This document shows, piece by piece, positions 3,168 to 59,937 of a DNA stretch of 64,000 nt (its first letter is position 1; every line of letters begins with the position of its first letter). Origin of the DNA: Acetobacterium woodii DSM 1030. Lineage in GTDB: Bacteria > Bacillota > Clostridia > Eubacteriales > Eubacteriaceae. A model generated the notes under the pieces. The model saw only the letters and a list, made by a program, of their open reading frames with translations, had not been told where the DNA came from and ran no database searches. Position numbers and translations under genes: made by a program. The stretch lies in assembly GCF_000247605.1 (NCBI RefSeq), contig NC_016894.1, positions 1,973,732 through 2,037,731 on the forward strand, in the 5' to 3' direction.

Positions 3168-3246
3168 TAGGTATTTGCGAAATTAAAAAACGTCAAACAA
3201 TGGTTGCTTTAGGTGCAGTTTCCACAAACAAGTTTGTCGCGTTAGG
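3168..3246. repeat. Truncated copy (left half) of the ~170-bp MITE-like element
   Basis: Starts with TAGGTATTTGCGAAATTA and follows the left half of the copy at 59053 through ...TTTCCACAAACAAGTTTGT, then stops matching just before the stop codon of the racemase-like gene. The central hairpin and right half are missing. Confidence 0.8.
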
Positions 3247-12331: not shown

Positions 12332-13135
12332 TTGGGAACAAAATATTGGCAAGAATTTCTTATTCCTTATCATCAGGCAGTTGATGAGATTGTATTAAAA
12401 TTTACGAGTTTAAAAGAACAATACGAAAAAATTGGCGAATATTCACCGATTGAATCGGTTTATGGTCGCGTTAAAAGCGTCTCCAGCATATTGGAAAAAA
12501 TCCATAACTATGGGGTTGATATTGAATCTTTGGAAGAAAACATCCAGGACATCGCCGGGGTTCGGATAATGTGTCAGTTTGAAGCAGATATCTATGAGGT
12601 CGTTGAGTTAATCAAAAAAAGATCTGATTGTGATATGGAAATCATTAAAGTAAAGGATTATCTCAGTGAAGCTAAAGCCAGTGGTTATAAAAGCTATCAT
12701 CTAATTATTCGATACCCTGTTTTTAGCGTAGCGGGAAATCAGACGATTTTGGTAGAAATTCAAATTCGGACTTTGGCGATGAATTTTTGGTCTATCATTG
12801 AACATTCTTTAAATTATAAATATAAGGAAAATATTCCGGAAACGATTAAAAGACGGCTGGTTAATGCCGCAAATGCCGTCAATGAAGTTGATCGGGAGAT
12901 GTCTTCGATTCGCGAAGAAATACAAAATGCGCAGCGTTTATTTGGTCTTAAATCAAGTTCGGTGACGAGCATTATTGATAATATCGGATATTTATATAAG
13001 TTGAATCAGGGCGAGAAAGCTTCTCAATATGAAAAGATTTTTGATGATTTATTTGCACAGGAAGATATTATTCAATTAATTCTGTTACGAAAAGAGCTGG
13101 AATCCGAAGTAAATAAGATTGAAGCTGAAGTTTAA
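12332..13135 (+). CDS. Small alarmone synthetase (GTP pyrophosphokinase, RelQ/SasB-type)
   Basis: 267 aa with only the RelA/SpoT synthetase domain and no hydrolase HD domain. Motifs are YGRVKSVSSILEK near residue 44, IQDIAGVRIMC near 69, ASGYKSYHLIIRYP near 111 and VEIQIRTLAMNFWSIIEHSL near 137. It would transfer pyrophosphate from ATP to GTP or GDP to make (p)ppGpp, as SasB/RelQ does in Firmicutes. The start is TTG, with GAGGT 7 nt upstream. The C-terminus is helical, like the tetramerisation helices of SAS proteins. Confidence 0.88.
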   Translation: MGTKYWQEFLIPYHQAVDEIVLKFTSLKEQYEKIGEYSPIESVYGRVKSVSSILEKIHNYGVDIESLEENIQDIAGVRIMCQFEADIYEVVELIKKRSDCDMEIIKVKDYLSEAKASGYKSYHLIIRYPVFSVAGNQTILVEIQIRTLAMNFWSIIEHSLNYKYKENIPETIKRRLVNAANAVNEVDREMSSIREEIQNAQRLFGLKSSSVTSIIDNIGYLYKLNQGEKASQYEKIFDDLFAQEDIIQLILLRKELESEVNKIEAEV

Positions 13136-13152
13136 GAATATTAAAAATTTGT

Positions 13153-13180
13153 TTGTGATAAAAGGACAATATGTTATAAT
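13153..13180 (+). promoter_or_regulatory. Promoter for yebC, upstream of the MITE
   Basis: TTGTGA (13153-13158), 16-bp spacer, TATAAT (13175-13180). The MITE begins 21 bp downstream of the -10, so the yebC 5' leader would contain the element. Confidence 0.6.
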
Positions 13181-13201
13181 AACAAACTGTAAATGATAAA
13201 A

Positions 13202-13371
13202 TAGGTAATTGCGAAAGTGCCATGAGCTTTGGGCCCAGTTTCGCACGAAACAATTTCTACACGGTACGGCGGACAGTTTGATGAACTGTTCGCCTACACG
13301 TTACGAAATCGTTTGTGGAAACTGCACTCAAAGCAACCGTTGTTTGATGTTTTTAATTTCGCAATTGCCTA
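13202..13371. repeat. Full-length MITE-like element (170 bp), copy 2
   Basis: Terminal inverted repeats TAGGTAATTGCGAAA and TTTCGCAATTGCCTA, with an inner perfect-arm hairpin (GGACAGTTtgatgAACTGTtC type) in the middle. No ORF. It is flanked on both sides by the exact 10-bp duplication AATGATAAAA (13192-13201 and 13372-13381). Its reverse complement matches the copy at 59053 along its whole length. Confidence 0.9.
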
Positions 13372-13397
13372 AATGATAAAAATCAAGGAGGTTGTCG

Positions 13398-14135
13398 ATG
13401 TCTGGACATTCAAAATGGTCGACTATTAAACACAAAAAAGGAAAAGCAGATGCAAAACGAGGTCAAATATTTACCAAGTTAGCAAAATATATTGCTGTCG
13501 CATCCCGGGAGGGTGGCAGTGATCCCGATATGAATGCAAAACTGAAAGAGGCAATCATAAAAGCTAAAGCTGCAAATATGCCAAATGATAATATTGATCG
13601 GGCGATAAAAAAAGGTGCCGGTGAATTGCAGGGCAGCGTTTATGAAGAAATTACTTATGAAGGTTATGGCCCCGGGGGCGTCGCGGTGATTGTGGAAACA
13701 TTAACTGACAATAAAAACAGAACAGCTGGGGATGTGCGACATGCATTTGATAAAAATGGCGGAAATCTCGGAACCAGTGGTTGCGTAGGTTTTCTGTTTA
13801 CTAAAAAAGGACAAATCTTTATTGAAAAAAATGATGATTTAGATGAAGAATCGCTAATGATGGTGGCTTTGGATGCAGGTGCCGAGGATATTGAAACAGC
13901 CGATGAAGGTTATGAGATCAGTACTGAACCAGCAGATTTTGGTTCGGTTTGTGATGCCTTGAAAGAAAACGGTTATGAACTTGTTTCGGCTGAAATTGCC
14001 ATGATACCATCGACTGAAGTTGAATTAACCGAAGCTGGTGATGTCAAAAAAATGTTAAAAATGATTGATATGTTTGATGATAATGAAGATATTCAGTCAG
14101 TTTGGCACAACTGGGTTGGTGAGGAAGATGAATAA
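13398..14135 (+). CDS. YebC/PmpR-family protein
   Basis: 245 aa, normal for the family. It starts with [20 protein letters not shown], the invariant family N-terminus, and keeps [14 protein letters not shown] and [19 protein letters not shown]. Members have been described as DNA-binding regulators and, for some paralogues, as ribosome factors that relieve proline stalling. Which applies here cannot be read from sequence. The ATG at 13398 has AAGGAGG upstream. The 170-bp element lies between promoter and start. The stop overlaps the next gene start by 8 bp. Confidence 0.93.
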
Positions 14136-25107: not shown

Positions 25108-26428
25108 GGTAGTGTCAATGATTTTTCGCAAAAATGGAAACAGTCATTAGGAAAACAAAAATCACCCAACAATTGAATCATTTTCCAGAAGTACCATTTC
25201 TTTCAGATGATCCATGTTCATGTAGTGTTTCACACCCCATTTTGAGCCGACAACATGACGTAGCCTGGCACAAACAAGCATTAACGCACTCTCAAGCGCC
25301 AATGGCTTTAGTCCGTCGTTTTATTTCCCGATTCAGCCGTTCAATGGTATTGTTTGTTTGAATTCGTGTCCAGTGCTGAGATGGAAAACCCATATAAGTT
25401 AAGGCTTCATCAATGCCATCTTCGAGTTTTTTGGCCGCTGCAGACAGCTTCATTTCCCGGAGTTTTTGGGCGACCTGCTTTGCCTTTTCCTGAGCGTGAA
25501 TGGCTTTAAGCATCATCGATACGGTCTTCATTTTATTGCGTGGCGTGATTGAAAAGATGTTGCGGTAGAAATGGACAGTGCAACGTTGATACCGGGCGTC
25601 TGGAAAAACTTCGGGAATGGCGTTAAGCATGCCAAGGTTTTTGTCTCCAATGATCAGTTGAACCCCTTTGAGACCTCGGCTTTTCAGCCAGACAAAGAAT
25701 TCATGCCAGCTGTCGTGATCTTCCTTCATTCCTTCTGCGGTGCCAATAATCTCGCGACAACCGTCTTCGTTAACACCGATGGCAATCAGTACAGCAACGT
25801 TCTGAATTTCACCAACCCAGCTGCGTTTCAGATAAATCTCATCGACATAAACATAGGGATAGTTCCCGGACAGTGGTCGGGAACGCCATGTTTCAATGTG
25901 CCATAGGCTTTTTTATTCGGATTGCTGATGGTGCCCGGGGATACCCTGGTTCCCCACAAGGCTTCGGTAATATCTTTCACACGACAAACTGAAACACCGG
26001 CCAGATACATTTCAATCAGCGCTTCCTCCACTGAGCATTCCCGGCGTCGGTAGCGCTCAATGATTGCCGTTTCAAAGGGGATTCCCTTGAGTTTTGGCAC
26101 TTCCAAGGTCACTTCGCCCTGTTGTATGAAAATTCCAGTTATAATGACCGGAACGATGGCCTTTACGTCCTTCACTTCTTTCATACTTATCGGCATTGAT
26201 CAGTACATCTGCTTCCTGATCCAGCATGGCATTGAGCGTTTCTTCGACGCTGTTTCTCACCAGATCACGTAATTCATTATGGATAATTTCCTGGTTCAGT
26301 TGTATAATATTCTCAGACATGGTTTTAGCCTCCTGGTTTATATTTGGTTGTGGTGACTTTATTCTACAAAACTGCTATAGATCATGTCTGTTTTTCATTA
26401 TTCATTTTTGCGAAATATATTATACGTT
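25108..26428 (-). mobile_element. IS256-family insertion sequence, inactive
   Basis: 1,321 bp, the canonical IS256 size, bounded by the direct repeat ATATATGCCC (25098-25107 and 26429-26438). Imperfect inverted ends share TTTCGCAAAAATG (25124-25136 and, inverted, 26404-26416). The single transposase gene is on the minus strand and broken. The element lies about 60 bp downstream of the ssrA terminator. Confidence 0.85.
25160..26320 (-). pseudogene. IS256 transposase, at least three frameshifts
   Basis: Translation begins at 26320 (MSENIIQLNQ, preceded by an AGGAGG-type site) and keeps the IS256 N-terminus up to about 26115. There the frame shifts, continues as VTLEVPKLKGIPFETAIIERY to about 25885, shifts again to VYVDEIYLKRSW and QLIIGDKNLGML, and shifts a third time near 25305 just after TNNTIERLNREIKRRTKAIGA. 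DDE catalytic blocks are present but split between frames, so no functional enzyme is made. One break looks like loss of a single C in what should be a GGCCAC codon pair. The product would have been the DDE transposase of this element. Confidence 0.88.
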
Positions 26429-53449: not shown

Positions 53450-54274
53450 TTACCTGCTTTTTTCTGAGCGGGCAAAAAGAAAGGTACCGATAATCAAGCA
53501 AATCACGGTCAACACGACAATAGCAATAAAGTTTACTACCGGATTAAACAAGACAACGCTCGCATATTCGGGAGTTCCGGCATAAACTACCGCGCGAACG
53601 AGGTCAAGGCAGTATGTCATCGGCATGGCATGGCTTAAGATATACAAAATACCACTGGAATTATTAATGGGAATAATCGCGCCGGAAAGAAACATCTGCG
53701 GCATGGTGATAAGCATCACGGCAATATTGGCGGTTTTATTGCTTTTGATAAGTCCGATGATGATCATTGCTAACGCCCCCCCCGAAAGACACATCAGTGG
53801 CGATAGGATTAGAATCATCAGTAGCTGTCCGGGATTGAGGGTAATTCCCATGATGAGCCCAACAATTAAAGTGCCAGCCATACTGATAATAGCGCCAAAG
53901 GATGAGCCGAAAATTTTACCGATCACGATCGCATAACGTGAGACCGGAGAAACCAGCATCTCCTGGGTGAAATCCGTAGTATGGTCTTCGACCAATGACA
54001 TCATTCCGGTAGTTGTGACCATAAAAAGCATATTAACCATCATCCCGACCATCATAAATTTGTTATAGTCGAAATGGAGGCCTCCCGTCATATTCTCGGC
54101 AAGGCTACCGCCTAGCATCCCCATCATGATCAGTGGCATGGCGAGACTCATAATAATGGTACTGGGCGACCGAAGCGCCAGTGTGATGTCTCTTAGGGCA
54201 ATCGTGATAACAGCGTTGATTTCACGTCTGATTCTTGATTTTCGTCTTCCATTTGTTAAAGAAATTTCATTCAT
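53450..54274 (-). CDS. ABC-2 type transporter permease
   Basis: 274 aa with six predicted membrane helices and the ABC-2 membrane block (DFTQEMLVSPVSRYAIVIGKI, then LSGAIIPINNSSGIL and AMPMTYCLDLVRAVVYAG), as in daunorubicin-resistance type exporters. It overlaps its ATPase by 4 bp (ATGA). Together they form an exporter for a drug, lipid or polysaccharide-like substrate, not identifiable here. Confidence 0.88.
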   Translation of the reverse strand: MNEISLTNGRRKSRIRREINAVITIALRDITLALRSPSTIIMSLAMPLIMMGMLGGSLAENMTGGLHFDYNKFMMVGMMVNMLFMVTTTGMMSLVEDHTTDFTQEMLVSPVSRYAIVIGKIFGSSFGAIISMAGTLIVGLIMGITLNPGQLLMILILSPLMCLSGGALAMIIIGLIKSNKTANIAVMLITMPQMFLSGAIIPINNSSGILYILSHAMPMTYCLDLVRAVVYAGTPEYASVVLFNPVVNFIAIVVLTVICLIIGTFLFARSEKSR

Positions 54275-57322: not shown

Positions 57323-58012
57323 ATGAAACAAATATTTTTAGTTGAGGATGATCAGGCCATTGCGAAAAACCTGATCCGTTTGCTCCGTTCGGAAGGGTTT
57401 AGTGTTATTCACGCTTCGACGCGAAGCGATGCCTTGGCCGCCCTGATCGGGAATAAATTTGACTTAGCACTGATTGATATTTCTCTGCCTGACGGAAATG
57501 GCTTTACGGTTTGTACGGAAATTAAAGCAAAACAAGATGTTCCGGTTATCTTTTTGACGGCTTCCGGCGACGAAGCAAGTGTTGTTACCGGGCTGAATAT
57601 GGGTGCGGACGATTATATTACCAAGCCGTTTCGTCCCCGTGAATTGATTGCCCGAATTGGATCTGCTCTGCGAAAAGGCGGACGTTTGGGGTCAACGTTT
57701 GAAATTCATGGGCTTTATGTCGATACGGCTAGTAGCATTGTGAAAAAAAACGGCACCGAAGTTTTTCTTTCGGCATTGGAATATCGACTGTTGTTGGTAT
57801 TTGTTAATAATCCCAAAAGCATTATCACGAGGGGGCAGCTGCTGGATGAATTATGGGACGCGGCGGGCGAGTTTGTCAATGACAATACCTTAACCGTGTA
57901 CATCAAACGCTTACGGGAAAAGATCGAGACCAATCCCGCCCGCCCGCAAATTATTTTGACTGTTCGTGGGACCGGGTATCGATTAGGAGGCGATGCGGAT
58001 GTTTCGAAATAA
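57323..58012 (+). CDS. OmpR-family response regulator (second system)
   Basis: 229 aa. Acidic EDD (8-10), phosphoacceptor Asp in LALIDISLPDGNGF (about 52), Lys in DDYITKPFRPREL (about 101) and a C-terminal winged helix (NTLTVYIKRLREKI, TVRGTGYRLGG). The group is close to VanR/BceR-type regulators, which usually govern antibiotic-response ABC transporters. It overlaps its kinase gene by 14-20 bp. Confidence 0.93.
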   Translation: MKQIFLVEDDQAIAKNLIRLLRSEGFSVIHASTRSDALAALIGNKFDLALIDISLPDGNGFTVCTEIKAKQDVPVIFLTASGDEASVVTGLNMGADDYITKPFRPRELIARIGSALRKGGRLGSTFEIHGLYVDTASSIVKKNGTEVFLSALEYRLLLVFVNNPKSIITRGQLLDELWDAAGEFVNDNTLTVYIKRLREKIETNPARPQIILTVRGTGYRLGGDADVSK

Positions 58013-59052: not shown

Positions 59053-59223
59053 TAGGTAATTGCGAAATTAAAAAACATCGAGCAACGGTTGCTTTGGGTG
59101 CAGTTTTCACAAACAATTTTGTAATGTGTAGGCGAACAGTTCATCGAACTGTCCGCCGTACCGTGTAGAAATTGTTTCGTGCGAAACTGAGCCCAAAGCT
59201 CATGGCATTTTCACAATTACCTA
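59053..59223. repeat. Full-length MITE-like element (171 bp), copy 3
   Basis: TAGGTAATTGCGAAATTA ... TTCACAATTACCTA, with the same inner hairpin as copy 2 but in the opposite orientation. It is flanked by GGGTAAACCATG (59041-59052) and GGGTAAACAATG (59224-59235), a 12-bp duplication with one mismatch. It lies between the kinase and the ABC transporter gene. Confidence 0.9.
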
Positions 59224-59253
59224 GGGTAAACAATGTGAAAGGAGACTCACATA

Positions 59254-59937
59254 ATGGAGTTTTTAAAAATTGAAAATTTATGCAAAGTTTACGGCACGAA
59301 CGAAAACCAAGTTACCGCACTTGATCATGTTTCACTAACAATTGAAAAGGGGGAATTTACCGCAATCATCGGTTCTTCAGGTTCCGGGAAATCCACGTTG
59401 CTTCATATTATCGGGGGTGTCGATGTGCCGACAAGCGGAAAGGTATATTTGGATGGGCAGGATGTCTATGCCCAAAGCAATGAAAAACTCGCTATCTTCC
59501 GCCGGCGCCAAGTTGGGCTGATTTACCAGTTTCACAACCTTATTCCAACTCTAAATGTGGTCGAAAATATCAGTTTGCCGATTTTGATGGACAAACGTAA
59601 GGTTAACGAGGAACGGCTTGATGATTTGCTTCAGTTGCTGGGGCTAAAAGACCGCAAAACACATTTGCCCAATCAGCTTTCGGGCGGTCAGCAGCAGCGG
59701 GTTTCCATCGGTCGCGCGTTGATGAATGCTCCGGCAGTCATGCTTGCCGACGAACCAACCGGTAGTTTGGATAGCCGTAATGGACATGAAATCATCAATC
59801 TGCTAAAATTAAGCAATCAAAAATTTCGACAGACACTGCTTCTGGTCACCCATGACGAAAATATTGCTCTCCAGGCAGACCGCATTATCGGCATCTCAGA
59901 TGGCAAAGTCGTGCGCGACGAACGGGTACGGCCATGA
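59254..59937 (+). CDS. ABC transporter ATP-binding protein (MacB/BceA-type)
   Basis: 227 aa. Walker A GSSGSGKSTL (about residue 39), signature LSGGQQQRVSIGRAL (about 140), Walker B VMLADEPTGSLD (about 162) and H-loop LVTHDENIA. The length and the QQQRV form are typical of LolD/MacB/BceA ATPases that drive mechanotransmission or antimicrobial-peptide transport with FtsX-type permeases. AAAGGAG precedes the ATG. Confidence 0.93.
   Translation: MEFLKIENLCKVYGTNENQVTALDHVSLTIEKGEFTAIIGSSGSGKSTLLHIIGGVDVPTSGKVYLDGQDVYAQSNEKLAIFRRRQVGLIYQFHNLIPTLNVVENISLPILMDKRKVNEERLDDLLQLLGLKDRKTHLPNQLSGGQQQRVSIGRALMNAPAVMLADEPTGSLDSRNGHEIINLLKLSNQKFRQTLLLVTHDENIALQADRIIGISDGKVVRDERVRP

Follow-up and report, generated by a model that had tools for sequence, protein, structure and literature searches.

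A MITE family of Acetobacterium and the insertion sequence sharing its ends lie just before Shine-Dalgarno sequences

In Acetobacterium woodii DSM 1030, a short hairpin element separates the promoter from the Shine-Dalgarno sequence (SD) of a gene which we take to be yebC, and this arrangement raises the question of how the element came to lie exactly there and whether it serves the gene. The locus is part of a stretch of 64,000 nucleotides (NC_016894.1, positions 1,973,732 to 2,037,731), called here the window. Read directly in the sequence, the element is 170 bp long, has the ends TAGGTAATTGCGAAA ... TTTCGCAATTGCCTA, which match at 14 of 15 positions (one mismatch), and is bordered on both sides by an exact AATGATAAAA; counting the terminal TA of the element, the duplication extends to 12 bp, TAAATGATAAAA. 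The order of the region is TTGTGA-16-TATAAT, AATGATAAAA, element, AATGATAAAA, AAGGAGG and ATG (Table 1). Since two promoter-like sites were found near yebC versus 1.9 in shuffled sequences, the support for the promoter is its conservation in relatives: a regular expression recovers it 37-44 nt before the ATG in 14 of the 15 other readable members of the genus, the exception being G009. From the position of TATAAT, whose last base is 13180, a transcription start near 13187 would be expected. An earlier, sequence-only reading had described positions 13153-13400 as the yebC 5' leader; the element does occupy a leader position, between promoter and AAGGAGG as that reading had it, but the interval begins with the promoter and not with the leader. 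The same reading had taken the 10-bp duplications as the mark of an insertion, and the comparison with relatives bears this out. The yebC leader could be read, by a regular expression for the start, in 16 of 17 genomes including this one (G002 was unreadable), and because the site is empty in all 15 others, the element is an insertion, which lengthened the leader of this genome by 180 nt.

Table 1. Coordinates of the features discussed, as positions within the window.
Feature	Position	Strand	Remarks
MITE copy, one-armed, degenerate (third copy in the window)	3168..3246	-	AAGGAG and the ATG of a gene on the minus strand follow outward from its left end
Promoter TTGTGA-16-TATAAT, TG before -10	13153..13180	+	-10 TATAAT at 13175-13180
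Left target-site duplication AATGATAAAA	13192..13201	.	Single copy in the empty sites of relatives
MITE, 170 bp, imperfect hairpin, ends TAGGTAATTGCGAAA / TAGGCAATTGCGAAA	13202..13371	+	The genome contains at least 139 such copies
Right target-site duplication AATGATAAAA	13372..13381	.	Read in the sequence
yebC Shine-Dalgarno AAGGAGG, the motif beside the insertion	13385..13391	+	
yebC	13398..14135	+	ATG at 13398, 26 nt past the element; orthologues found in 17 of the 19 genomes of the genus
MITE copy (second copy in the window)	59053..59223	-	12-bp duplication GGGTAAACCATG / GGGTAAACAATG

The yebC element belongs to a large family. In the genome (4,044,777 bp, single contig), candidate places were merged into 135 clusters, and a profile search of the 119 stretches fetched from them gave the count of non-overlapping copies in Table 1, which is a lower bound: 115 are near-full-length (131-182 bp) and 24 are partial, the latter being excluded from the target counts below. 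A DNA search with the MITE gave at least 56 matches, palindromic double matches included (202 candidates, 40 scored), and its 16-base core has 130 matches at up to two mismatches versus 2 in the control. Among 61 genomes searched, the MITE was matched in 18, every one of them in the genus Acetobacterium, and a search of plasmids with it gave no match. Target duplications are recognisable in 96 of the 115 near-full-length copies, versus a mean of 1.15 when flanks are mismatched, and measure 10-12 bp in 88 of these 96. The copies thus show the attributes of a MITE: short length, no transposase gene, terminal inverted repeats, a target-site duplication and, as described below, ends in common with an autonomous element. 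Within the window, the second copy is followed by GAAAGGAG at 59237-59244 and by the ATG, at 59254, of a gene that appears from its translation to encode an ABC transporter ATPase. A lone end-like sequence at 57353-57367, with 3 mismatches, is within chance expectation.

The position of these copies obeys a common rule. Scoring as motif any AGGA, GGAG, GAGG or AAGG located 8-25 nt outside an element end, on either side, we found it in 111 of the 115 near-full-length copies (on both sides in 5), whereas 26% of random positions carry it in a control window three bases wider; in 103 copies the motif is 13-18 nt from the end. In nine relatives (60 copies fetched, 59 aligned near-full-length, 58 with both flanks), the motif accompanies 56 of 58 copies, and the enrichment reaches p = 4e-59 in this genome and 2e-30 in the relatives. 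An SD followed by an ORF of 40 codons or more that starts within 60 nt is present at 94 of the 115 copies and at 54 of the 58 in the relatives, and in 89 of the 94 a distance of 22-32 nt separates element and start codon. The position just before an SD is therefore the rule for the whole MITE family, the motif being absent at 4 of the 115 own copies and 2 of the 58 in relatives. Orientation is not part of the rule, with 38 of the 94 copies directed with the target gene and 56 against it. A co-directional ORF lies upstream of 68 of the 94 target genes, and because 18 of these 68 end within 22 nt of the element, insertions inside probable operons do occur. The first 12 bases outside the copies are 82% A+T, and coding sequence is largely spared: in the empty sites which the duplications allowed us to model, an ORF of 100 codons spans 7 of 104. 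Judged by reading, one of the seven (L117) appears to be a clear insertion into coding sequence, at codon 537 of 569, and of the other six, four look like the target gene extended upstream beyond its start and two like chance ORFs.

By pairing exact end positions in five relatives with transposase positions, we found an insertion sequence (IS) of 1760 bp that shares the ends of the MITE and codes for a transposase of 485 aa. Two identical copies are present in A. wieringae DSM 1911, one 99.7% alike in A. fimetarium DSM 8238, and two more, 97% and 95% alike, in metagenome-assembled genomes; the IS is intact in A. wieringae and A. fimetarium. Its left end, TAGGTAATTGCGAAA, is that of the MITE, with 15 of 15 bp shared between the MITE consensus and the IS both of this genome and of A. 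wieringae, and its right end reads inwards TAGGCGTTTGCAAAACGCC, which 17 of the 115 MITE copies share over 15 of 15 bp. All five IS copies lie directly before an SD, and three have duplications of 11-12 bp (L270 has none, and the L271 copy begins where its contig does). As in the IS1182 family, the transposase combines DUF772 (40.1 bits, cut-off 23.1) with DDE_Tnp_1 (23.9 bits, cut-off 23) and has NF033551 (IS1182) as its best NCBIfam match, but it reaches 60.8 bits there against a cut-off of 270, so that the IS is better described as IS1182-like only. Residues D149, D290 and E427, invariant in 12 homologues, probably form the catalytic triad; the structure model is poor (pLDDT 61). A protein search with the transposase gave matches in 10 of 19 genomes of the genus. 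In A. woodii itself, one IS copy (G000:C1:1106821-1108497, 1677 bp) has a broken reading frame and a 10-bp duplication, GAACACCAGT, with GAAAGG and then the ATG of a 138-codon ORF outward from its right end, and a second, near 1286540-1287598, is truncated. The shared ends suggest that the IS probably mobilised the MITE in trans. Against this stand the lack of an intact IS copy among those found in A. woodii and another genome of the genus, G014, which has 10 IS matches but no MITE match; the ten are 85% alike to the transposase, none is broken and three stand in a row at 1018857-1023833, which makes this IS a candidate for one that is still mobile.

The IS follows the same target rule, in other genera too. 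Genome contigs were scanned and 20 IS loci obtained; L307 was set aside, its 38% match covering part of the protein, and three had an unreadable right end (L293, L301, L305). The 16 that were scored comprise four of the Acetobacterium copies described above and others from, among them, Dethiosulfatibacter, Cellulosilyticum and a Lachnospiraceae genome. The right flank carries the motif in 15 of the 16 and an SD with an ORF in 12; one locus has GAAAGGG and no gene (L298), and L294, with a 12-bp duplication, lacks the motif. Because the motif is found on the side of the left end in 1 of 11 loci, it is the right end that the IS turns to the motif, an orientation that is fixed for the IS and not for the MITE. 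On a Butyrivibrio plasmid, the outer one of tandem IS copies stands before GGAGG and ATG, and on a Roseburia plasmid a copy stands beside AAAAGGAG, by our reading inside coding sequence. Phage contigs, found by the right end of the IS alone, have the motif in 12 of 12 cases and an ORF of 40 codons in 10 of 12.

Of the 21 near-full-length copies lacking an SD with an ORF, 17 still carry the motif (16% in the control for that window, p = 8e-11), and 12 of these 17 lack any start codon with 15 codons after it. One such motif, AAAAAGGAG, belongs to a terminator-like repeat (L065), a GAAAGGG lies in a probable terminator (L134), and the L117 insertion stands beside an antisense GAAAGG late within a coding sequence. 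The presence of the motif even where there is no gene makes recognition of SD-like DNA the best explanation of the pattern, and we consider it likely that the MITE is moved by the IS1182-like element, whose transposase picks a purine-rich DNA motif that is mostly an SD. The target would be a motif resembling AAAGGAGG, presumably read as DNA and, in these genomes, most often an SD. Insertion would duplicate 10-12 bp of AT-rich DNA ending about 3-6 bp before the motif, and because the duplicated DNA ends there, the element would come to lie between the promoter, or the upstream gene, and the SD. The dozen bases preceding the SD would be restored by the duplication, so that the site could be hit again. 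With coding sequence, start codon and SD all left intact, the cost would be low and copies could accumulate; at yebC, the leader has gained 180 nt, a strong hairpin among them, and the SD remains accessible by prediction.

SDs are used more often than expected if the motif alone decided. Sites that carry the motif in non-coding DNA, with AT-rich sequence upstream, number 82 at SDs and 67 elsewhere, whereas the occupied ones number 94 and 17; targeted SDs also match the anti-SD better, with a mean of 5.79 versus 4.98 (66 versus 177 genes of the same stretches, p = 3e-6). This preference for SDs, and for the stronger ones, would be expected if the initiating ribosome, the anti-SD rRNA or the transcription bubble, rather than DNA sequence, led the transposase to its sites. 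Such guidance is unlikely in view of the motif sites without a gene, the antisense motif late in a coding sequence at L117, the Roseburia plasmid copy beside AAAAGGAG and the insertions inside operons. Yeast Ty elements home to tRNA genes, and the idea that a clostridial transposon family homes to ribosome-binding sites through the expression machinery, as their bacterial counterpart, is equally improbable; if true, such homing would be a safe haven, with more than 100 gene leaders colonised and almost no gene broken. Selection could also act alone on insertions made at AT-rich sites without any motif preference, those between promoter and SD surviving as the least harmful. The A+T content of the flanks and the sparing of coding sequence agree with this, and the excess of SDs over other motif sites fits purifying selection. 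The rest of the leader should tolerate insertion too, however, so that the spacing of 13-18 nt between motif and end in 103 of 115 copies is not accounted for by harm; the motif is moreover present where there is no gene, and the IS loci turn one end to it. Selection as the sole cause is thus quite unlikely.

The element had further been proposed to sequester the ribosome-binding site, to affect the stability or processing of the transcript and to be a candidate for domestication as a regulatory RNA. Folded alone, it does form a strong hairpin (-73.6 kcal/mol, z -8.4, none of 200 shuffles as good), but the predicted accessibility of the yebC SD does not fall, being 0.74 with the element and 0.63 without it (start at 13187 assumed), which speaks against sequestration; over 93 copies the predicted medians are 0.48 and 0.44 (p = 0.57). 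Attenuation is not supported for yebC, with no terminator-like site in 13000-13500, and in the window the tmRNA was the sole Rfam match at the gathering threshold. The comparison of leaders that confirmed the insertion also showed it to be specific to one of the 16 readable species, so the locus is not conserved as a cis-regulatory RNA would be. Nor is covariation beyond chance: in a consensus fold of 106 copies, double changes in the hairpin number 27 against a mean of 19 and a maximum of 28 in shuffles, and RNAalifold gives a poor structure for the copies. A Pfam scan of 93 target proteins, all of the 94 except one that is 45 aa long, found no family in more than three, among the 25 commonest of 143 families. 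Mismatches seem to lean weakly to the gene strand (G-T versus A-C 52:101 in the same orientation and 50:149 in the opposite one), a comparison that is confounded by subfamilies. In A. woodii, 581 transcription starts have been mapped, and that study ties 5' UTR structure and the SD to translation efficiency (PMC8407422); this, the hairpin in its leader position and the lean of the mismatches are what favours a hairpin kept for the control of yebC and other targets, a role made very unlikely by its occurrence at yebC in a single species, by 93 targets without functional theme, by covariation within the range of shuffles, by unchanged predicted accessibility and by the use of both orientations. 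The yebC element is, on a conservative reading, a tolerated insertion, and yebC expression is probably little changed, although the long hairpin could possibly bring about RNase III cutting or an altered mRNA life.

Comparison with known repeats shows where this family stands apart. MITEAba12 of Acinetobacter is likewise a short MITE whose ends match the IS probably moving it, ISAba12, but the available part of its description reports 9-bp duplications and no target nucleotide trend besides AT-richness (PMC6382973), whereas the Acetobacterium MITE has 10-12 bp duplications and keeps a fixed spacing to an SD-like motif. The Correia, ERIC and BOX/RUP repeats are also transcribed, palindromic and able to affect mRNA cleavage or expression; unlike here, no fixed SD spacing is mentioned in the portion available (PMC3049150). 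The 5' UTRs of A. bakii have been studied as well (PMC6239172), and the accessible parts of this article and of PMC8407422 make no mention of the MITE family. In a full-text literature search, whose coverage leaves out most subscription journals, we found no MITE or IS with SD targeting. What is new here is the target, i.e., insertion a few bases before ribosome-binding sites. The harm that a transposon does to its host is set by its choice of target, and a reader of SD-like sequences would land where promoter and start signal are spared and where duplication restores the target, which would account for the tolerance of some 140 copies. How a DDE transposase recognises its target thereby becomes open to direct test, and the element might serve as a tool for inserting DNA immediately upstream of ORFs. 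Leaders may also differ between Acetobacterium species, a genus used in biotechnology, through recent insertions.

Other transposases were screened as partners of the MITE. PF01609 matched, in this genome, only a transposon with a 535-aa product and other ends, which was rejected; it is a DUF772/DDE transposon with nearly identical copies at G000:C1:658109-661852 (L175) and 3782551-3786294 (L176), insignificantly similar to the IS transposase (BLASTP E 0.056), and its flanks read as terminator-like rather than as SDs. The PF01609 loci of the genus yielded no paired ends, and the PF06782 profile had no match in this genome, its control likewise being without a match anywhere. In the window, an IS256-type transposase gene (PF00872) at 25298-26323 on the minus strand adjoins the tmRNA; it was rejected as well, being broken into three frames and flanked by a different, inverted TTTCGCAAAAATG repeat unlike the MITE ends. 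MITE or IS copies also occur head to tail at one SD (L057 at 53902-54252, L328 in G014, L309/L311 on the Butyrivibrio plasmid pCY360), separated by a short duplication, a pattern expected if every insertion restores its target; at L057, the second copy sits between the copy at 53902 and the SD. Finally, inverted pairs of ends only 52 bp apart, which are possibly minimal derivatives, were seen at G010:C1:327573-327624, G005:C10:90876-90927 and 322258-322309, and G009:C62:7491-7542.
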